The notes under the pieces: generated by a model
Told to the model about the DNA's origin: nothing
What the model saw: only the letters and a program-made list of their open reading frames with translations
Database searches by the model: none
Shown: piece by piece, positions 3,194 to 27,502 of the stretch
Numbering within the stretch: position 1 is the first letter of the stretch
Layout of the letters: each line of letters begins with the position of its first letter
Assembly: GCF_000380185.1 (NCBI RefSeq)
Contig: NZ_KB904760.1
Span: forward strand, 1 to 52,511
Length of the DNA stretch: 52,511 nucleotides
Reading direction: 5' to 3'
DNA from: Thiofilum flexile DSM 14609
GTDB taxonomy: Bacteria > Pseudomonadota > Gammaproteobacteria > Thiotrichales > Thiotrichaceae
Translations under genes and position numbers: made by a program

Positions 3194-4450
3194 CTAGCTA
3201 AAACCACTTTGCCACAGCGTCTCACCTTTGGCTCCTACCACCCAAAACTGATGCGCTTCATCCAGCGTGGGCAATTGATAAGCATCTAACTGTCGATCTA
3301 ACACCTCCTCCGGCACCACATGCTCCCGCGCCCGGTTATTGTTACGCAGCTCCGTTTCCGGCAACAAAAACACCACCAAGGTTACTAAGGCATGATAATC
3401 ACGCCCCAAATCTGCCACCATAGAGCGAAAATCCTTGCGTATATTCGTGGCATCCCAGATCACACCGCACTTAGCACGTAAGGCAGCCTTTAAATTTTCC
3501 TTGGCTTGCTGGCGAATCTGTCCGCTATGCTCTTGACTCGCACGATCACCATTCCAGTGTTCGCGTAACTCATCTAGAGAAATACGTTCATACTCCGGGA
3601 AATGCTGCTGTAGCCAAGTCGATTTACCCGAACCACTCATGCCACAGGTAATCACCAAATGGGCATGTTGCTCTCGATGGGTATAGGTGGTGCTTAGTGC
3701 CTCCTCGGCTTGGGTGATTTTACCACTTTCCAGCTCTGTGACCGCATAGGCCTGTACATAGCTTTGGGCGGATTCAGACAACTGTGCCAACTCAGGACGA
3801 ATCGCTTGCAGAGGATCAAACCTATCCCACACACCATAGCTTTGGCATAAGCTGCGAAACTCTTCCAGAATCAATGCGTTCATTTCGTGATCATTACAGA
3901 TGCGCCCCTGCATATCCGCCCGTGCTAACCAATACAATAAAGGTAACTTGACCTGATGCGCTAATTTCAGAAAAGCCGCCCGATTACTTTCTCGCAATAC
4001 CAGCCTATGTATCATCTGATGCTCTCCCACCAGATTCAGCACATTCCAAATCACCGCAAAAGGCAATGACCACTGCATCATCCTAACGGCTAAATAAGAG
4101 CGCCCCTTATCCTCATGACCAGAGGAACCAATCCGTATGCGCCCGTCTTTTTCATAGTTTTTGGTACATACTGGCTTAGCAATATCATGCAGACAAGCAC
4201 CCAGAATCAAAGCCTGACGCTCAGCACCTTGAATATGTTGTGCTTCGGTTTGCAGCAATTGATATAACTCCTCTAGCACCATGCCAGTATGAATATGCAC
4301 ATTGCCCTCGGCATGCCATTCATTATCCTGCGGGGTATCCTTAAAGCGTAGCAACAGCGGTAGCTCAGCGCCCATCTGTGCTACACATTCGTCTATATCC
4401 GGTGTCGCATCCAAAGCCAAGCGGGCTAACCAATCATTCAAGTCTTTCAT
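3194..4450 (-). CDS. HD-Pnk: HD-domain phosphohydrolase fused to polynucleotide 5'-kinase
   Basis: 418 aa with two domains. The N-terminal half (about 40-240) is an HD phosphohydrolase, with histidines in VHIHTGMVL (about 51-59) and the HD doublet His88-Asp89 in CLHDIAKP. The C-terminal half (about 264-418) is a P-loop kinase with Walker A GMSGSGKS (270-277) and DATNIRKDFR, as in T4 Pnkp-type kinases. The known bacterial HD-Pnk family heals broken RNA ends: the HD domain removes 2',3'-cyclic or other 3' phosphates and the kinase phosphorylates the 5'-OH. The start codon overlaps the upstream ligase stop by 4 bp (ATGA), so the two are translationally coupled. The RNA-repair role is inferred from domain order plus this neighbour. 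Confidence 0.85.
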   Translation of the reverse strand: MKDLNDWLARLALDATPDIDECVAQMGAELPLLLRFKDTPQDNEWHAEGNVHIHTGMVLEELYQLLQTEAQHIQGAERQALILGACLHDIAKPVCTKNYEKDGRIRIGSSGHEDKGRSYLAVRMMQWSLPFAVIWNVLNLVGEHQMIHRLVLRESNRAAFLKLAHQVKLPLLYWLARADMQGRICNDHEMNALILEEFRSLCQSYGVWDRFDPLQAIRPELAQLSESAQSYVQAYAVTELESGKITQAEEALSTTYTHREQHAHLVITCGMSGSGKSTWLQQHFPEYERISLDELREHWNGDRASQEHSGQIRQQAKENLKAALRAKCGVIWDATNIRKDFRSMVADLGRDYHALVTLVVFLLPETELRNNNRAREHVVPEEVLDRQLDAYQLPTLDEAHQFWVVGAKGETLWQSGFS

Positions 4451-5079
4451 TCTGCGCCCTCCTTTAAACCATTCGGGATAATCTCGGCAAACATCCAGTG
4501 CTCCGTGGTCTGTACATGTTTAGCACGTACCCATTTCGCCATATGTTGGGCAAACTCATCATAATGAAAGGCGCGTGTTGCCCGTACCACATAGCCCTCG
4601 CTACGTTGTGTATCCACCGGAATGGCGCGTATCAGCTCCTCATCCCAGATGCCTTGATACAATACGGGGGGGAGATGAATATTCAATAATCCGAACCAGT
4701 CCTGTGTGTCTGCCCAGCTCAGGCAAATATTCTGCTCATTCCAAATGGAAAAACCGTAAAAATAACTCTCCAGCGCTGGATAGATCACCGAATGCTGGGC
4801 ATAGAGATTTTCACCGCAAATACGCCAATCGGGCGGGATTTCGTGCTTGAATTGACCGTACCACTGCTTGACCCAATCTCTTGAATCATGATGGCGACTA
4901 TCGATGGAGCGGGCGTGCATACGATCTCGATACAGTGAAGTATTTTCGCCATCCATTTTTTCGGTGACAACGACTTCAAGCCCGACAAACTGCTGGGTAT
5001 TAATAATGCGAATATCATCACTAGCGACACTTGCCGACCAAGGCAAATGCGGGGTGCGCGGATATTTATAGACTGACAT
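4447..5079 (-). CDS. ATP-dependent RNA ligase (RNA_ligase/DRB0094-like family)
   Basis: 210 aa from the preferred start at 5077-5079, which has an AGGA about 9 bases upstream; an in-frame ATG at 5121 would add 14 residues with no family similarity. The nucleotidyltransferase motifs are in order: motif I KMDGE with AMP-accepting Lys41, a motif III-like FYGFSIWNE after GENLYAQHS, motif IV EGYVVR, and a motif V region KWVRAKHV. Such ligases adenylate the enzyme, transfer AMP to a 5'-phosphate RNA end, and seal it to a 3'-OH. The protein is little more than the catalytic core. It overlaps the HD-Pnk gene by 4 bp, giving a complete heal-and-seal pair. The CRISPR array begins about 210 bp upstream. 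Confidence 0.85.
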   Translation of the reverse strand: MSVYKYPRTPHLPWSASVASDDIRIINTQQFVGLEVVVTEKMDGENTSLYRDRMHARSIDSRHHDSRDWVKQWYGQFKHEIPPDWRICGENLYAQHSVIYPALESYFYGFSIWNEQNICLSWADTQDWFGLLNIHLPPVLYQGIWDEELIRAIPVDTQRSEGYVVRATRAFHYDEFAQHMAKWVRAKHVQTTEHWMFAEIIPNGLKEGAE

Positions 5080-5291
5080 AGCCTGTATTCCTAAAACCAT
5101 TAAAATACTAAGCACAAGCAAAACTGTCTCAGATAGGACTGAGCAGGCAGGTGCGATTTTTTGAGATTTGGTTTTGGATAAGTAACTACATGGCTATTAA
5201 GAATAGTTAAAGGTTAATGGTTGAAGATAAGTTTTCAATATTAGTTTGATTATATCACTTGCCACAAGTTCAAAGTAGATCAGTTGATGCT
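5080..5291. other. AT-rich flank between the RNA ligase gene and the CRISPR array
   Basis: 212 bp, strikingly AT-rich from about 5160 to 5270. It must contain the promoter of the minus-strand RNA-repair pair. It could also be the CRISPR leader if the array is transcribed on the plus strand. No clear IHF site or promoter was fixed. Confidence 0.4.
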
Positions 5292-6663
5292 GTCATAACC
5301 CCGCATGGGGATTCGTAACTAGCATCCTCGCTTAATTGCGTAGGGCACTTTGTACGTCATAACCCCGCATGGAGATTCGTAACCTTTTGTGTTTCGGCGA
5401 GTATGTCCATACGTCAGATGTCATAACCCCGCATGGGGATTCGTAACATGAAGAAGCGCAAGTGTCACCTCTCAAACTTTTATGTCATAACCCCGCATGG
5501 GGATTCGTAACAAGAATTTATAGTCTCCTATGACGGAGTATTTTATGTCATAACCCCGCATGGGGATTCGTAACCTAATTGATAAGGATGATAAGGCGGA
5601 CTCGGACTGGTCATAACCCCGCATGGGGATTCGTAACGACTCAGCCACGGACAGCTCAGGGGATTTATGCGTTGTCATAACCCCGCATGGGGATTCGTAA
5701 CCGAACGAGGCTTGAGCCACTGGGCGGCTGCCGCCATTGTCATAACCCCGCATGGGGATTCGTAACCCTCGAAGAGGATGGGATTGTCGGGCGCGATGCA
5801 AAGGTCATAACCCCGCATGGGGATTCGTAACTACGTTGAGTCAGTCAAAGAAGGGACTACGCCCGACGTCATAACCCCGCATGGGGATTCGTAACCAAGC
5901 CTCTGAGTTCGTTCTCTTGCTGATAGGTAATGTCATAACCCCGCATGGGGATTCGTAACGTCGATTTTAGTCGTAGGGATATTATCCCCACGCAAGTCAT
6001 AACCCCGCATGGGGATTCGTAACGATATCCACAGCCGTATAACCCGCCACCAGCGAGCGGTCATAACCCCGCATGGGGATTCGTAACACTAATCAAGAGC
6101 CAGATTTTGGTACATCGTTAGCAGTCATAACCCCGCATGGGGATTCGTAACTACCATGCAGAGCCATCACCCAATCCTCGTGCTTAGTCATAACCCCGCA
6201 TGGGGATTCGTAACGTTGACATTTATTTTACCAATACCGCGCATGAGCTAGTCATAACCCCGCATGGGGATTCGTAACTGAGTGATTGAGTGCCCAATCC
6301 GCTCGGATTGGACGCGTCATAACCCCGCATGGGGATTCGTAACACCTCATCAATAACGAAGGCGACGGCGAAACCGTTTGTCATAACCCCGCATGGGGAT
6401 TCGTAACGATTGATCCTAGTCTCGATGCTGCACCCGTGCCACGGTCATAACCCCGCATGGGGATTCGTAACTATTTTTTGGAAGCTGAACGGGTTTAATT
6501 CGGAGAAGTCATAACCCCGCATGGGGATTCGTAACGGATGGCACAATTGTGGGACTGGACTACCTCAAAGCGTCATAACCCCGCATGGGGATTCGTAACG
6601 ATTAGTAAAGTGGACGCAGCAGCTCGCAAGCTCAGGTCATAACCCCGCATGGGGATTCGTAAC
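5292..6663. CRISPR. CRISPR array, 22 repeats of 28 bp and 21 spacers of 35-37 bp
   Basis: Repeat starts are 5292, 5356, 5420, 5484, 5547, 5610, 5674, 5739, 5804, 5868, 5932, 5996, 6060, 6124, 6187, 6251, 6316, 6380, 6444, 6508, 6572 and 6636, each 28 bp. The plus-strand repeat begins GTCATAA, has a CCCC-GCAT-GGGG stem-loop, and ends ATTCGTAAC. All copies are identical except the second (5356), which has one G-to-A change in the right stem arm. Transcribed on the plus strand, the 3' handle after the stem would be AUUCGUAAC, resembling the AUUGAAAC handles of many Cas6 systems, and the AT-rich left flank would be the leader. The variant repeat near the left end argues weakly the other way, so orientation is unresolved. 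Spacers are all different. No cas gene lies in the window, and both neighbours (RNA-repair genes, icd) are unrelated to Cas. Confidence 0.98.
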
Positions 6664-11641: not shown

Positions 11642-11753
11642 AGCCACTATCCGTTTGTCCTTTTAGTCTTGCCACTCGCCCTAATCATTCCACGCTGCGC
11701 TTGCTAGCATCTTATAGTTGTGATTATGAACTCATTATAAGGAGCTACTCGAA

Positions 11754-12218
11754 ATGACACATATTTTCCCTAGTAATAATCGCACAGGAGCCAGCCTGCT
11801 ACCACGCACGGCCTCAGGCGATCAAAGTGCTAATATCCGTCTGGCTAGTCAGCAATTAAACTGGATGAATAATCCTTTTGCTAATAACAATAAGGCTGGT
11901 TTTTTAGATTTGGCGGTATTAGTTCGCCAGATTTTAGTACAACTAATGAATCATCTGCCTATGCCAGCACCGGCACCCGCCCCGATACCAGGGCCTATTA
12001 TGCAGCCCGTGTATGGCGTGATTCAGCCGCCGATGGCTCAACCAGTGTATGGTGTAATTCAGCCGCCTAATGACCCTATCATACAACCCGTCTATGGCGT
12101 GGTATTACCCCCCAATGACCCCATCATGCAGCCGGTCTATGGAGTAGTGCAGCCCATTGATAATGATCCTCCTATACAGGCGATCTATGGGTCAATCCAG
12201 CCAATCTCTGGGTCTTAA
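11754..12218 (+). CDS. Putative RiPP precursor with five YG repeats (spliceotide-like)
   Basis: 154 aa, no close homologue recognised. Residues 1-70 have no signal peptide and contain a predicted amphipathic helix (AGFLDLAVLVRQILVQLMNHL, part). A Pro/Ala hinge (69-82) leads to five imperfect repeats of the form Q-P-V-Y-G-V-I/V-Q-P, with Tyr-Gly at 87, 99, 114, 129 and 145; the last repeat is IYG. The repeats contain no Cys, Ser or Thr in their cores until the end (IYGS, ISGS). AAGGAG lies 8 bases before ATG 11754, and a weak promoter (TTGCTA at 11701, TATGAA at 11725, 18-bp spacing) precedes it. A radical SAM/SPASM gene follows 96 bp later on the same strand. In known spliceotide systems (PlpA/PlpX) the XYG motif is the splice site, so VYG/IYG here make it a likely multi-core precursor. 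The modification itself is inference. Confidence 0.7.
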   Translation: MTHIFPSNNRTGASLLPRTASGDQSANIRLASQQLNWMNNPFANNNKAGFLDLAVLVRQILVQLMNHLPMPAPAPAPIPGPIMQPVYGVIQPPMAQPVYGVIQPPNDPIIQPVYGVVLPPNDPIMQPVYGVVQPIDNDPPIQAIYGSIQPISGS

Positions 12219-12314
12219 CTTTAGGGTATGAGGGGTTAGTAAAAAAGAATTCAGGCTTTAACACTTAGAATAAAGTCTCCCTATTGAGTCCCATGATAAG
12301 AGGAACTACCGGCT

Positions 12315-13685
12315 ATGTCACAATCTACCACTAACAGCACTTCAGGCTTTAGCACGCGGCGTAAAAGTTACGCCGTTTGGGAAACGACACTTAAATGTAA
12401 TCTAGCTTGCTCTCATTGCGGCTCACGGGCAGGTGAAGCACGCGTCAATGAGCTATCTACGGCGGAATCGTTTGATTTAGTCCGTCAAATGGCTGAGGTA
12501 GGCATTACAGAAGTGACTATGATTGGGGGTGAGGCCTTTCTACGCTCCGATTGGCTCGACATAGCCGAGGAAATCACCCGTCAGGGGATGATTTGCTCCA
12601 TGACGACGGGAGGTTATGGGATTAACCGTAACACTGCTCAACGCATGAAAGATGCCGGAATCAATCAAGTCTCGGTATCCGTGGATGGCATGAGACAAAC
12701 TCATGATAAATTGCGCGGCAAGATTGGTTCATGGCGCTATGCCTTTGAAACAATGGAGCACTTTAATGCAGTGGGGCTTTATTTTGGCGCAAATACTCAG
12801 GTCAATCGCCTCTCCGCCCCCGAATTTCCTCTATTATTTCAAGCGTTGATTGATGCAGGCGCTAAGGCTTGGCAAATCCAAATGACCGTACCCATGGGGA
12901 ATGCTGCCGATAATTCTGACATTCTAATGCAGCCCTATGAATTACTAGCGTTTCACCCACTGCTCGCTCAGTTAGCTAAGCGTGGCTATAAACAAGGTTT
13001 TTACGTACAGCCCGGCAATAACTATGGCTATTACGGCCCTTATGATCGGATGTTGCGGGGGTTTGGACGCGAAACCGAGTTTAGTTTTTGGCGCGGCTGT
13101 AATGCAGGCTTGAGTACCATTGGTATTGAGGCTGATGGCACGATTAAAGGTTGCCCTTCCCTTCCCACGGCTGCCTATTCAGGGGGATCGATTCGGGACG
13201 CTTCCTTAGTCGAAATACTGACCGAACGGGATGAACTAACCTTTAATCTCAAGGCTGGTACAGCAGAAGGTACTGCTCATCTTTGGGGCTTTTGCAAAAC
13301 CTGTGATTTTGCCGCCTTGTGTCGGGGTGCCTGTAACTGGACAGCACATGTATTCTTTGATCAACGGGGTAATAATCCCTATTGTCATCATCGCGCCCTC
13401 GTGAATGCCGCCAATGGGGTACGTGAAGAAGTCATGATTCGCCGCAAAGCAAATGGCTTACCGTTTGATAATGGCGTATTTGATTTAAATACCTCAGCCT
13501 TCGATGCACCTTTAACGGATGATCCTATGCGCTTTGAAGTGGAGAAGGTTCAATGGCCTGAGGCATGGTTACAAGATAATCCCCACCTCAGTGCTGAGCT
13601 TAAACAAGAAGTACAACGCAATATTGATACTATGCGCAAAGCTCAACAGGCTCGTAAACCCTCTCTGAGTACAACCACTATTTAA
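12315..13685 (+). CDS. Radical SAM/SPASM peptide maturase, candidate splicease
   Basis: 456 aa. The radical SAM cluster is CX3CX2C at Cys28, Cys32 and Cys35 (LKCNLACSHCGS), followed by the GGE motif at 71-73 for SAM binding. The SPASM domain has Cys262, Cys280, Cys327, Cys330, Cys336, Cys340 and Cys357, enough to hold two extra 4Fe-4S clusters. About 90 residues follow the SPASM region and could help bind substrate. No separate RRE or PlpY-like partner, protease or exporter is next to it. SPASM proteins beside a repeat-rich small gene usually modify that peptide. AGAGGAA precedes the ATG. Whether it excises tyramine at YG, crosslinks Tyr, or does something else cannot be decided from sequence. 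Confidence 0.85.
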   Translation: MSQSTTNSTSGFSTRRKSYAVWETTLKCNLACSHCGSRAGEARVNELSTAESFDLVRQMAEVGITEVTMIGGEAFLRSDWLDIAEEITRQGMICSMTTGGYGINRNTAQRMKDAGINQVSVSVDGMRQTHDKLRGKIGSWRYAFETMEHFNAVGLYFGANTQVNRLSAPEFPLLFQALIDAGAKAWQIQMTVPMGNAADNSDILMQPYELLAFHPLLAQLAKRGYKQGFYVQPGNNYGYYGPYDRMLRGFGRETEFSFWRGCNAGLSTIGIEADGTIKGCPSLPTAAYSGGSIRDASLVEILTERDELTFNLKAGTAEGTAHLWGFCKTCDFAALCRGACNWTAHVFFDQRGNNPYCHHRALVNAANGVREEVMIRRKANGLPFDNGVFDLNTSAFDAPLTDDPMRFEVEKVQWPEAWLQDNPHLSAELKQEVQRNIDTMRKAQQARKPSLSTTTI

Positions 13686-23948: not shown

Positions 23949-24220
23949 TGGCGCTTTCACTTACGCGGCTGAAATCCTTTATTAAGGACAGCGAAAAAAT
24001 CAAACTCACTGATAAACATTTTACTCGGTTTGTGGAATACCTTTATTTGCTATCCCAAGAGCATCCCCTACCTGCAGAAGCCAAAGACCACGCGCTCAAT
24101 GGCGAATGGGTAGACTTTAGAGAGTTTCATATTAGCGGCGATGTGCTAGTGATCTATCGCATTGAAAATGATTCAGTCAAACTAGTACGGATTGGTAGCC
24201 ACAGTCAACTATTTGGTTGA
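23948..24220 (+). CDS. yafQ: Type II toxin, YafQ/RelE-family mRNA interferase
   Basis: 90 aa with the compact RelE fold. The ending LVRIGSHSQLFG keeps the catalytic histidine of YafQ (here His85), and HALNGEWVDFREFHISGDVLVIYRI matches the family core. YafQ cuts mRNA in the ribosome, mainly at in-frame lysine codons in E. coli. Coupled to the antitoxin by a one-base overlap. Confidence 0.9.
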   Translation: MALSLTRLKSFIKDSEKIKLTDKHFTRFVEYLYLLSQEHPLPAEAKDHALNGEWVDFREFHISGDVLVIYRIENDSVKLVRIGSHSQLFG

Positions 24221-24247
24221 GAAGGTATATATTTACATTGCTCACCC

Positions 24248-25696
24248 TTATTTTCTTTTTAATGATGTTTTCTTAGTATTAATTAGACTAAGATATACTT
24301 TTCCAGTAGTTATTGCATCATCATAAGCTCTATGAAAATTAATACCTTTAATATCAAAATAAAAAGCAAGATCCTGTAGTTTATGACTTGTCAAATGTGG
24401 GAGTTTTCTACGTGCTAAATCCAATGTATCAATAAAATGATTCTCTATAATAAAACCATATTTATCTGCATAACGCTTTATAAATCTCTCATCAAAACTT
24501 TTATTATGAACAACAATATCCAAATTATTAATAAATCTCATAAAACGAGGAAAAACATAGTCCATTGTCGGTCTGCCAATAAGCATTTGATTAGTAATAC
24601 CTGTTATTTTTTCTACTAATGGAGGAATAGTTCTATCTGAATAAATCAATCCTCCAAACTTTCTTTTAGCATAGCCATTCTCAAATAAAATAGCAGCTAT
24701 CTCAATAATCTCATCATTATTAGAAAATCCTGTAGTTTCAATATCAACTACTACAAATACACCACCACGCCTTATCTTTTTAACCTTCTCAGCATTGGTA
24801 ATTTTATGCGAATGCTGCTTGCTATGACAAACAACGCATAAAGTTATCAAGTTATTCAAATTATGAGTACCACAATAATCCAAGTGGATGATATGGTGAA
24901 CATCTAACCCTCTGTGTTGGTAAGTTTCGCCACATAGCTGACACTGGTGTTTGTCTCGCTTTAAAATTGCTAAATTTACCTTCTTGCGCTCATCATCTAA
25001 CAATCTTTCTAAAACACTACCATCCCCAGTTATAAACCCAAGATGATAAGCCCTAATAAGTTTTGCTATCCAAGCAATACCAAAAGTGAAAGTTTCTGAA
25101 TTGTAGTTATTAATTATAATACGCTTGAATAGCAAACTATTTGCATCATCCTTATCATTAACAATAGATTCTATCCAACTCGATAGCTTTTCATCAATAT
25201 ATTGACTTTTATTAGCTATAAAATTATCACGCTCAATTTTAAGCTTCTCCAATAAAAGCAATACATCTTTCTTATTTTGCTGATAGATTTTTATTTCATA
25301 ATGGTATAAATTATCAAAAACCGACATTTGTGTTTTAAATATTTTTTCTTTATTAAATATAGACCAATACATACCTTTTAAAATACCAATACTATTTTTA
25401 GTCTCTACCTCTGCTAGCCTCATAACCTCATCCATGTTTGGCTCTTTGGGGAGTAATGGCATTGATTTTAAAGAGTATCTACCTTCAGTAATTTCGTACT
25501 CATAGTTAAACTCAACTATATCATTTTTATACTCATTAATAATTGACTCAATGGTAAAAATACTCCATTGTGCTGAGCGAAGCATTTTTCCATATTTATT
25601 AATATCATTAATACATCTTTGACATATAGAAATATTATCAATAGTAAACTTTACTATTGTGAAATTTAGGCAAATACTGCAATAGTCATGACTCAT
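24248..25696 (-). CDS. HNH endonuclease fused to a DEDDh 3'-5' exonuclease
   Basis: 482 aa, clearly more AT-rich than its neighbours. The N-terminus has CxxC pairs (Cys6/Cys9 and Cys25/Cys28) that could bind zinc, then about 200 residues with no recognised fold. An HNH domain follows at about 245-292: CQLC (252-255), DVHHIIHLD with His267-His268, Asn near 280, CVVCH (287-291). A DnaQ-like exonuclease occupies about 313-470, with DIETTG (Asp318, Glu320), HNKSFDERF (Asp402) and HRAYDDA (His455, Asp459/460). All catalytic residues of both nucleases are kept. The combination is unusual. The AT-rich composition and the toxin-antitoxin pair beside it point to recent transfer. A defence role is possible but not shown. 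Confidence 0.8.
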   Translation of the reverse strand: MSHDYCSICLNFTIVKFTIDNISICQRCINDINKYGKMLRSAQWSIFTIESIINEYKNDIVEFNYEYEITEGRYSLKSMPLLPKEPNMDEVMRLAEVETKNSIGILKGMYWSIFNKEKIFKTQMSVFDNLYHYEIKIYQQNKKDVLLLLEKLKIERDNFIANKSQYIDEKLSSWIESIVNDKDDANSLLFKRIIINNYNSETFTFGIAWIAKLIRAYHLGFITGDGSVLERLLDDERKKVNLAILKRDKHQCQLCGETYQHRGLDVHHIIHLDYCGTHNLNNLITLCVVCHSKQHSHKITNAEKVKKIRRGGVFVVVDIETTGFSNNDEIIEIAAILFENGYAKRKFGGLIYSDRTIPPLVEKITGITNQMLIGRPTMDYVFPRFMRFINNLDIVVHNKSFDERFIKRYADKYGFIIENHFIDTLDLARRKLPHLTSHKLQDLAFYFDIKGINFHRAYDDAITTGKVYLSLINTKKTSLKRK

Positions 25697-25999
25697 ATAC
25701 TAATTCATAACACATCTTAATGACTGGTTAAGACTGCAATATGCCAACTAATTACTGGCTAGACAATAGTCATTATGCTCAAACCTAAGAATCATCAATA
25801 CAAATCTTAAGAAAATTTTAATTCTATTAAATTATTAGCACTTTTTGGGTAGCTCTCCTTGGTTTTGCTCACAGTACATGCCTCAAAACAAGATCATGTA
25901 CCGTAATTTGTACCGTGTAACAGGCTATGTAATCAAGTGTAACAACTCATTCAGAGCTTATTAAATCAATAAGTTACACAGCCTGTAAAACACTATGAT
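25697..25999. other. 303-bp AT-rich gap between the nuclease fusion and lysS
   Basis: The only structure seen is a 13-bp inverted repeat with one mismatch, 25920-25932 against 25974-25986, enclosing a smaller CTTATT/AATAAG hairpin. It lies just after the lysS stop (minus strand) and may end that transcript. The rest is unexplained, and the nuclease promoter should be here. Confidence 0.4.
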
Positions 26000-27502
26000 C
26001 TATTCCGGACGCATATGTGGGAATAAGATCACATCGCGGATCGACGGTGCATTAGTAAACAACATCACCAAGCGATCAATACCAATCCCTTCGCCTGCGG
26101 TCGGTGGCATACCATACTCTAGCGCCCGCACGAAATCGGCATCGTAAAACATCGCTTCATCATCCCCCGCCTCTTTCTCACGCACCTGCTGTAAGAAACG
26201 CTCGGCTTGATCCTCGGCATCATTTAATTCCGAAAAACCATTGCCAATCTCACGCCCACCGATATAAAACTCAAAGCGGTCTGTGACAAAAGGATTACCA
26301 TCCTTAGCCCGCGCTAAAGGTGACACTTCTGCCGGATGCTCCATGACAAAGGTAGGCTGTTGCAATAAATGCTCAACGGTTTCCTCGAAAATAGCGATTT
26401 GCACCTTACCCAAACCATCACTCTCTTTGACGTGAATCTGTTTACGTTTGGCGACTTCGCGGGCGGATTCAAGGTTATCAATCTGCTCAGCGGTTACCTC
26501 AGGATTGTATTTTAAAATCGCATCCCGAATTGTAATACGCTCAAAGGGCTTAGCAAAATCAAATACTTGATCTTGATATTTGACCTCAGTTGTACCTAAT
26601 AAATCCTGTGCTAGCCCTTTAAATAGGCTCTCGGTTAAATCCATCAGATCGTGATACGTCGCATAGGCTTGGTAAAACTCAATCATGGTAAACTCAGGGT
26701 TATGGCGTACCGATACCCCTTCATTACGGAAATTGCGATTAATTTCAAATACCCGCTCAAAGCCGCCTACGACTAAGCGCTTGAGGTATAATTCCGGTGC
26801 AATCCGTAAATACATCGCCATATCAAGCGCATTATGATGTGTCACAAACGGACGCGCCGCAGCCCCGCCTGGAATCACTTGCAGCATAGGCGTTTCGACT
26901 TCTAAGTATTCGCGTTGAATAAAGAAGTTACGAATATAGCTAATGATTTTAGAGCGCATACGGAAGGTATGGCGCGACTCATCATTCATAATCAGATCGA
27001 GATAACGTTGACGATAACGCTGCTCTTGATCAGTCAGGCCATGAAACTTTTCGGGCAATGAGCGCAACGCTTTAGTCAGTAAACGAATGCTTTTGACTTT
27101 AACCGATAATTCGCCCGTTTTAGTCTTAAATAGCACACCTTCTGCGCTAATGATGTCGCCTAAATCCCAATGCGCAAAGTCATGAAAAGCTTCTTCGCCC
27201 AAGGTATTTTGCTGTACATAGAGCTGAATTCGCCCTGAAGTATCGGACAGCGTGACAAAGCTAGCTTTACCCATCATGCGACGCAACATGATACGTCCGG
27301 CGACAGTCACTGGGATGGTATTAGCTTCAAACCATTCCTTGTCATGTTCGCCATACTGAGCGGCTAGTTCAGCCGCTTTATGCTCACGCACGACCTCATT
27401 AGGAAAAGCATTCCCTTTTGCCCGTAAAGCTTTCAATTTTTCACGGCGCTGCGCCATGAGTTGATTATCATCGTGATGATCGTGATTAGTCGTTTCACTC
27501 AT
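26000..27502 (-). CDS. lysS: Lysyl-tRNA synthetase, class II
   Basis: 500 aa. The N-terminal OB-fold anticodon-binding domain (about 60-180) contains [21 protein letters not shown]. The class II core has motif 2 [23 protein letters not shown] and motif 3 [12 protein letters not shown]. It charges tRNA-Lys. It lies 15 bp after prfB, and prfB-lysS is the same operon order as in E. coli. Confidence 0.97.

Follow-up and report, generated by a model that had tools for sequence, protein, structure and literature searches.

A candidate spliceotide cassette with a five-site YG repeat precursor in Thiofilum flexile DSM 14609

The closest described system to the one reported here is PlpA/PlpX/PlpY of Pleurocapsa sp. 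PCC 7319. According to the parts of the literature available to us, PlpX (IPR026482) together with PlpY removes tyramine at Xaa-Tyr-Gly (PMC11002830), several splicing events are possible in one precursor (PMC10373908), PlpXY splices without a need for the precursor leader (PMC10533398) and an RRE fold would not fit into a protein as small as PlpY (PMC12710340). Here we describe a candidate system of this kind at positions 11754 to 13685 of the window, by which we mean the whole 52,511-nucleotide (nt) stretch of Thiofilum flexile DSM 14609 (contig NZ_KB904760.1) that was analysed. It consists of a short open reading frame (ORF) with five Xaa-Tyr-Gly sites and, after a gap of 96 nt and in the same direction (+), the gene of a radical S-adenosylmethionine (SAM) enzyme with a SPASM region. 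From their anatomy, conservation and enzyme kinship, we consider the two genes a likely spliceotide cassette (probability roughly 0.8) in which a PlpX-type enzyme would excise tyramine at up to five YG sites per chain.

The YG repeat array and its enzyme

The precursor (154 residues, 11754..12218, +) was identified as an ORF and has a homologue 5' of the enzyme in all eight loci of the Thiothrix type, to which the window belongs. An AAGGAG ribosome-binding site was read in the sequence at 11739..11744 (+), 9 nt before the ATG. The protein has a tripartite layout, with an LPR motif and a predicted short helix in residues 1-47, a second predicted helix at residues 48-66 followed by a Pro/Ala linker, and the YG tail. 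The five [V/I]YG sites in the tail were confirmed as the original prediction gave them, with VYG four times and IYG once at spacings of 12, 15, 15 and 16 residues. The first four read QPV-Tyr-Gly at Tyr87 (12012..12017), Tyr99 (12048..12053), Tyr114 (12093..12098) and Tyr129 (12138..12143) and the fifth reads QAI-Tyr145-Gly (12186..12191), all on the plus strand. Their description as near-identical repeats holds for only four of the five, the last (QAIYGSI) being divergent.

When the 79-residue core was shuffled 20,000 times, no shuffle reached five YG. At the DNA level, Tandem Repeats Finder reported a 45-nt period from 12039 to 12155, and a repeat search found a 29-nt unit in four copies. 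When the first four repeats were compared in pairs (six comparisons of 7 codons each, which are not independent of one another), the differing codon pairs were synonymous in 23 cases and non-synonymous in 4. The upstream ORFs of the seven other Thiothrix-type loci (L003-L008 and L017) have 2 to 4 YG sites, and every site in the eight precursors (29/29) was observed to follow the pattern Q-[P/A]-[V/L/I]-Y-G.

The array might be spliced only in part, for example at one or two sites, with the others serving as docking sites or being degenerate copies. This would agree with the fifth repeat, which deviates at positions -2, -1 and +2, with the last repeats of L003, L004, L007 and L017, which deviate after YG, and with the single-site relatives L040 to L047, from which it appears that one site suffices. 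The retention of Gln at -3 at all 29 YG sites and the dominance of synonymous changes among the first four repeats argue the other way, and we regard partial splicing as possible but doubtful.

The enzyme (456 residues, 12315..13685, +) is probably of the splicease type by its best-matching family and its place in the tree. Its top family was TIGR04103 (rSAM_nif11_3; 693 bits, E-value 1e-208), which we take to be the same as the PlpX family IPR026482. The runner-up, TIGR03913 (GDL), scored about 300 bits less (392 bits against a cut-off of 591.75) and the precursor had no DUF1843 match, which places the pair outside the GDL maturases. The full CX3CX2C radical SAM cluster site (C28, C32 and C35; 12396..12419, +) and the seven-Cys SPASM region (C262, C280, C327, C330, C336, C340 and C357; 13098..13385, +) that had been predicted are both present, and all ten cysteines are invariant in 25 aligned sequences, the window included. 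The Pfam SPASM model gave 20.1 bits, slightly under its cut-off of 21.5. The AlphaFold model of the enzyme has a predicted local distance difference test score (pLDDT) of 86 and a predicted template modelling score of 0.87, and it contains a C-terminal helix (residues 425-451; 13587..13667, +) past the end of the 420-residue enzyme of Nostoc sp. C057.

The solved folds closest to this model include SkfB, PqqE, anSME and SuiB, and no structure named as a splicease was among the eight sequence matches of the enzyme. Some of these similar SPASM enzymes (SuiB, SkfB and anSME) catalyse other reactions and the score of the enzyme lies under the TIGR04103 cut-off, both of which would fit a different radical chemistry at the tyrosines, namely a Tyr crosslink (cyclophane or ether) or epimerisation. 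We consider this very unlikely, as the models of StsB, SkfB, WgkB, PapB and DynA reached only 51 to 85 bits against 693, and the tree places the enzyme within the clade of a Nostoc enzyme that has an ALYG precursor. These five enzymes share the SPASM fold with the window enzyme, and we know of no Xaa-Tyr-Gly rule for any of them. A crosslinking enzyme was also rejected directly, from the scores for PapB (52 bits), DynA (51) and WgkB (70) against cut-offs of 340, 450 and 650 and from the tree; the enzyme clusters with the splicease-type TIGR04103 family as sister to the Nostoc enzyme of a Nif11/ALYG locus. The suggestion of a new subfamily becomes a question of degree because the enzyme is 63% identical to that of Nostoc sp. 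C057.

Conservation of the gene pair among relatives

In a tree of 54 relatives, the eight Thiothrix-type enzymes form one group (100/100) which is sister to Nostoc sp. C057 (98/90), and together they sit in a clade of 24 rows (98/96) whose other members are all myxobacterial. Nine loci repeating others were left out of the tree and L002, L012 and L021 are without a row; the tree and the counts within the clade cover the loci fetched, which are part of the myxobacterial places matched. The nearest relatives of the window enzyme come from named Thiothrix species. Relatives at E-values up to 1e-60 were found in 48 of 195 Myxococcota genomes, and, with the window's own genome included, 3 of 398 Pseudomonadota genomes and 2 of 369 genomes of the same class hold a relative. 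Viral copies were considered and rejected, all 20 loci being weak partial matches with 23 to 38% identity.

Neighbouring genes were compared as ORFs of at least 80 residues within about 4 kb (in the window, with starts at 7.5 to 18.5 kb), looking for sharing by three or more loci. Only the precursor and the enzyme are shared that widely, and both are common to all eight Thiothrix-type loci. L003 and L004 alone share flanking genes, and the remaining shared pairs are antisense frames within the enzyme gene. In the window, the pair is flanked on the other strand by a PlsY-like gene and an acyltransferase-like gene, both named by eye from their translations. The YG-repeat protein could in principle be a proline-rich surface protein that merely neighbours the enzyme, which its helix module, similar to that of other proteins of the genome, would fit. 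The retention of the pair in 8/8 loci, set against other neighbours shared only by L003 and L004, and the equivalent pairs in Myxococcota and Nostoc make this extremely improbable.

An xYG ORF adjoins the enzyme in all members of the 24-row clade (24/24), and in 15 of them it has two or more sites. The multi-site group comprises the eight Thiothrix-type loci (2 to 5 sites), L009, L013 and L036 with five, L037, L038 and L039 with four and L048 with ten, while the nine single-site members are eight myxobacterial loci (L040-L047) and Nostoc. The ORFs of L009 and L038, taken from the first start codon, have one extra YG upstream of the leader which is excluded from these counts. Homologous loci had been expected to carry YG repeats, and this is the case for 8/8 Thiothrix-type and 7/15 myxobacterial loci of the clade, the other eight having one site. 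Among five extra myxobacterial places (55 to 57% identity), L114 has three RYG sites behind a leader that begins FPRASWKD, of the same type as the other myxobacterial leaders, and L115 and L116 have one site each with an FPR leader. Overall, 27 of the 29 enzymes in the clade and the extra places have an xYG neighbour. The remaining two of the five extra places, L117 and L118, hold splicease-type enzymes that are near-identical paralogues found in two genomes which also hold a single-site pair (L047 and L045).

The residue before YG (P1) goes by lineage. Valine occupies 26 of the 29 sites of the Thiothrix type. In Myxococcota, P1 is Arg or Lys in L009, L013, L037, L038 and L114, Met in L036, Leu (with one Met) in L048 and Val in L039.

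Several of the myxobacterial loci have features of their own. The longest array seen is an ORF in L048 (168-1412) with ten PLYG/PMYG sites and the leader LPRRAWKDDQALLKAEKRALEGL, located 5' of an enzyme relative of 52% identity. The precursor of L039 (2718-3122) lies just 3' of its enzyme and combines an LPR leader with four VYG sites, and at its C-terminus it has a hydrophobic stretch resembling a membrane helix. Similar ORFs of about 96-100 residues are found downstream of the enzymes in L009 (2379-2669), L013 (5271-5561) and L048 (2735-3037).

Leader, PlpY-like proteins and the helix module

The N-terminus of the precursor had been described as neither Nif11-like nor NHLP-like, and the scans agree with this as no match of the precursor was found in NCBIfam up to an E-value of 10 or in Pfam up to an E-value of 1. 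The leader carries the motif L16-P17-R18...Q24...A31...L35 (residues 16-36; 11799..11861, +), which overlaps a predicted short helix at residues 24-38. All six of these residues are invariant in the alignment of the eight Thiothrix-type precursors, and the invariant columns outside the YG array also include L56, Q63, P73 and P77. A second, amphipathic helix is predicted at residues 48-66 (11895..11951, +), followed by the Pro/Ala linker. Both helices come from a structure model of low confidence (pLDDT 51).

A separate PlpY, also reported as missing by the original prediction, was found neither in the genome with a single short Nostoc query nor among window ORFs of at least 30 residues with leader hidden Markov models (HMMs), both searches having little power for a protein so short and divergent. 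In Nostoc sp. C057 (L023), the locus comprises a Nif11 precursor ending in GSIALYGLPPELF (ALYG), the enzyme, which scores 853 bits for TIGR04103 (above the cut-off), and a 71-residue ORF that overlaps the enzyme end by 4 nt. We call this ORF PlpY-like because of its position and length.

An HMM of six myxobacterial [LF]PR-x-x-W leaders, run on 4278 ORFs of the study loci, matched this Nostoc ORF at an E-value of 1.1e-5. In order, the matches were the six training precursors with L013 (a near-copy of L009), the Nostoc sp. C057 ORF, an ORF of Nostoc sp. UHCC 0926 (L086; E-value 0.017), which had been put into the ORF set by hand after a tblastn match, and noise from 1.3. With an HMM of eleven leaders, single-site precursors included, the Nostoc sp. 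C057 ORF came next after 14 myxobacterial precursors (E-value 0.0087, followed by 0.61). Because the leader HMMs rank it directly after the precursors, the Nostoc PlpY-like ORF is, as judged from these profiles, homologous to the leader of the myxobacterial repeat precursors, standing in trans in Nostoc and in cis in Myxococcota. On the basis of one tree, in which the cis form is widely distributed in the clade and only Nostoc showed the trans form, the free protein is probably the derived state. Such a relation would fit with PlpY being too small for an RRE fold (PMC12710340) and with leader-independent splicing by PlpXY (PMC10533398), as far as the available parts of these sources go. In Nostoc sp. 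UHCC 0926, the PlpY-like ORF (about 3936-4106) precedes an ORF (4143-5957) in which a Nif11-like leader is joined to a large protein, and inspection by eye of the larger ORFs in this 8.1-kb stretch revealed no splicease.

For the Thiothrix leader, homology with the myxobacterial leader was sought by HMM with a negative result. A composite LPR...AxxxL motif was found in 18 of 4277 ORFs, of which 14 are precursors or the PlpY-like ORF and four are chance occurrences; its rarity is no clean test because the motif was written after the Thiothrix leaders had been seen. In a shuffle test against the Nostoc ORF, p was 0.013 for the window, 0.0005 for L003, 0.001 for L004 and between 0.27 and 0.83 for the remaining five leaders of the Thiothrix type, while 0 of 2000 shuffles reached the scores of the myxobacterial L009 and L013. 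The link of the Thiothrix leader to the PlpY-like module is thus weak and suggestive only, consisting of a short LPR...AxxxL motif. The lack of a PlpY might be accounted for by a PlpY-like leader within the precursor, clear in Myxococcota and suggestive at most in Thiothrix. The helper function could also sit in the enzyme's own C-terminal helix, which is absent in Nostoc.

The helix at 48-66 may be a module in its own right. The precursor alignment also matches other proteins of the genome through this helix and its linker (best E-value 1.4e-4, most matches being weak). An alignment of ten such proteins found an N-terminal helix-plus-linker module in 13 other proteins of the genome at E-values up to 7e-13, with 10 of the 13 being the query rows themselves; the window precursor was not matched by it at E-values up to 1, and its own copy is supported indirectly, through the alignment of its homologues. 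Module proteins in L095 (4599-7519), L096 (2041-3285), L097 (487-2919), L098 (1197-3116) and L099 (479-2639), on contigs C25, C2, C13, C3 and C5, have an N/T/Q/S-rich stretch, an amphipathic helix such as LLNQLLAQLNQ and then a P/T- or G-rich linker. Six module proteins were scanned, giving two with a SASA esterase domain, one with a bacterial Ig/cadherin domain, one with a VWD domain, one just under the VWD cut-off and one without a match. No obvious signal peptide was seen by eye in those that were read. The module is perhaps an undescribed targeting or secretion signal. If it is really shared, the precursor would be handled as a protein and not cut to a small peptide. Elsewhere in the window, positions 24001-26000 form 2 kb of low G+C (0.315 compared with about 0.46 on either side).

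These similarities leave room for a second interpretation of the spliceotide pair, in which the ketoamides are no inhibitor warheads. The protein would be exported by a route that the helix module marks, and the ketoamides would act as handles for attachment or crosslinking in a sheath or outer layer. It is consistent with the 13 module proteins, four of the six scanned passing the cut-offs for domains common outside cells, with the hydrophobic stretch at the C-terminus of the L039 precursor, and with an HMM of nine module segments whose four best matches among 4277 ORFs were, in order, the precursors of L007, L017, L006 and L004 (E-values 1.9e-4, 0.074, 0.13 and 0.84). Only the L007 value is good, and the window precursor and three others were missed by this HMM. 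In addition, the segments were cut by eye from proteins first found through the precursor alignment, the similarity may be compositional, and the regular P1 and P2 residues fit inhibition better than random attachment. We therefore view export for attachment as rather unlikely.

Proposed mechanism and comparison with known systems

The spliceotide model that we favour is a proposal as regards splicing itself, how many sites are used, what the leader does and what the product is for. The leader, with its LPR motif and amphipathic helix, would probably dock the substrate on the enzyme as a cis counterpart of the PlpY that acts in trans, and the five sites would be offered in a flexible proline-rich tail behind this short leader. 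Radical SAM enzymes generally work through a 5'-deoxyadenosyl radical, and this chemistry would most likely take place at Tyr, so that every site accepted by the enzyme would lose C8H9NO and close to a ketoamide. The product would probably be the whole protein of about 15.9 kDa carrying several Pro-Val ketoamides, and such groups would be suited to inhibiting elastase-like proteases in a reversible covalent manner. If the array were fully spliced, one ribosomal protein would have several identical backbone ketoamides and form a natural multivalent covalent-reversible inhibitor. The inhibitor specificity would then be written in the one residue before YG, and the leader-borne recognition helix could be moved onto other proteins.

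A number of observations weigh against this model. The 693 bits of the enzyme are 32 below the curated TIGR04103 cut-off (725), and the Pleurocapsa PlpX and PlpY were represented by the Nostoc locus in all comparisons. The Thiothrix leaders were not among the matches of either myxobacterial leader HMM, and hhalign comparisons of the Thiothrix leaders with the myxobacterial/Nostoc leaders gave P of only 0.056 and 0.008. On the strand of the enzyme, no xYG ORF lies closer than about 900 nt to L117 or L118 (57% identity), whose substrate may therefore be a distant one. DUF1843 precursors, in which LYA or MYA stands in place of YG, also belong to the wider family. The inhibitor role is proposed from the preference of elastase-like serine proteases for Pro at P2 and Val at P1. 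Furthermore, only two of the FtsZ tag placements tabled in the accessible part of PMC10533398 were modified and most were not, which means that the presence of YG does not guarantee splicing.

A broader scenario would have PlpY as a leader that became detached from its precursor. The [LF]PR helix would be ancestral within the substrate, as in Myxococcota, and free in cyanobacteria, where a free partner would relieve the substrate of its leader. In Thiothrix it would still be in cis, degenerated to LPR and joined to a targeting helix that other proteins of the surface type also use. Up to five identical Pro-Val ketoamides would be displayed and, together with the Arg/Lys/Met/Leu arrays of related lineages, would form multi-headed protease inhibitors with a specificity set by the residue before YG. 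We put this scenario forward as tentative, with the odds against it.

More distant enzyme relatives are accompanied by other proteins with YG. In L011 (3444-3896), L056 (2729-3022), L057 (2681-3220), L058 (2721-3095), L062 (993-1442) and L031 (1038-1469), the neighbour of the enzyme is a small protein whose zinc-ribbon-like start is followed by a hydrophobic stretch and then by Cys-Tyr-Gly or xYG, which coincides with a lipobox-like Cys or comes shortly behind it. These are possibly tyramine-spliced lipoproteins. Beside another enzyme clade, proteins in L049 (2700-3335), L050 (902-1432), L051 (643-1371) and L053 (779-1387) have two sites of the RPMYGVFIRD and APMYGVVFRD type, with a helix-like segment after each. 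Beside clostridial relatives, L018 (3721-3912) and L019 (3631-3852) hold small ORFs that look like lipoproteins and contain YG twice, KYGPP being one of the forms. In Thermoplasmatota (L016, 2893-3976), three tandem paralogous membrane-type proteins with YGVF near each C-terminus lie 5' of a distant enzyme relative.

The nearest other enzyme family is that of the TIGR03913 maturases, which accompany GDL/DUF1843 peptides, some with PYG near the start. Such peptides were seen beside TIGR03913-type enzymes in L024 (4180-4893) and L026 (4287-4742). Unlike the window, these enzymes fall outside the clade in the tree and their peptides have another leader and at most one YG in the five that were read (two with PYG, two with LYA or MYA and one with neither). 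Because the peptides vary between PYG, LYA and MYA, these maturases may perform related chemistry with a looser motif. The Myxococcota repeat precursors (L009, L013, L036, L037, L038, L039, L048 and L114) also resemble the window, with 3 to 10 xYG sites beside a related enzyme and an [LF]PR leader. They differ in that this [LF]PR-x-x-W leader is homologous to the PlpY-like ORF, P1 is mostly another residue and no helix of the Thiothrix type was noticed.

No paper joining Thiothrix with radical SAM and a precursor peptide was found in the literature searched, where a repeat array with a cis leader was likewise not met. Scott et al. 2022 (Chem) and Richter et al. 2024 (Chem Sci), which are outside that search, may already describe repeat precursors or a helper helix. 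The spliceotide kind itself is known and we regard the present locus as a variant of it. Compared with PlpA/PlpX/PlpY of Pleurocapsa, for which the Nostoc sp. C057 locus is the stand-in, the window has a leader matching neither Nif11 nor NHLP, no separate PlpY was found and no adjacent epimerase gene recognised, and its five sites are placed in a proline-rich array. Both systems have a PlpX-type SPASM enzyme, a precursor gene beside the enzyme gene and Xaa-Tyr-Gly with similar flanks, as QPVYGVIQPP of the window resembles the PIRPGYGLPI contained in tags accepted by PlpXY in the available part of PMC10533398.

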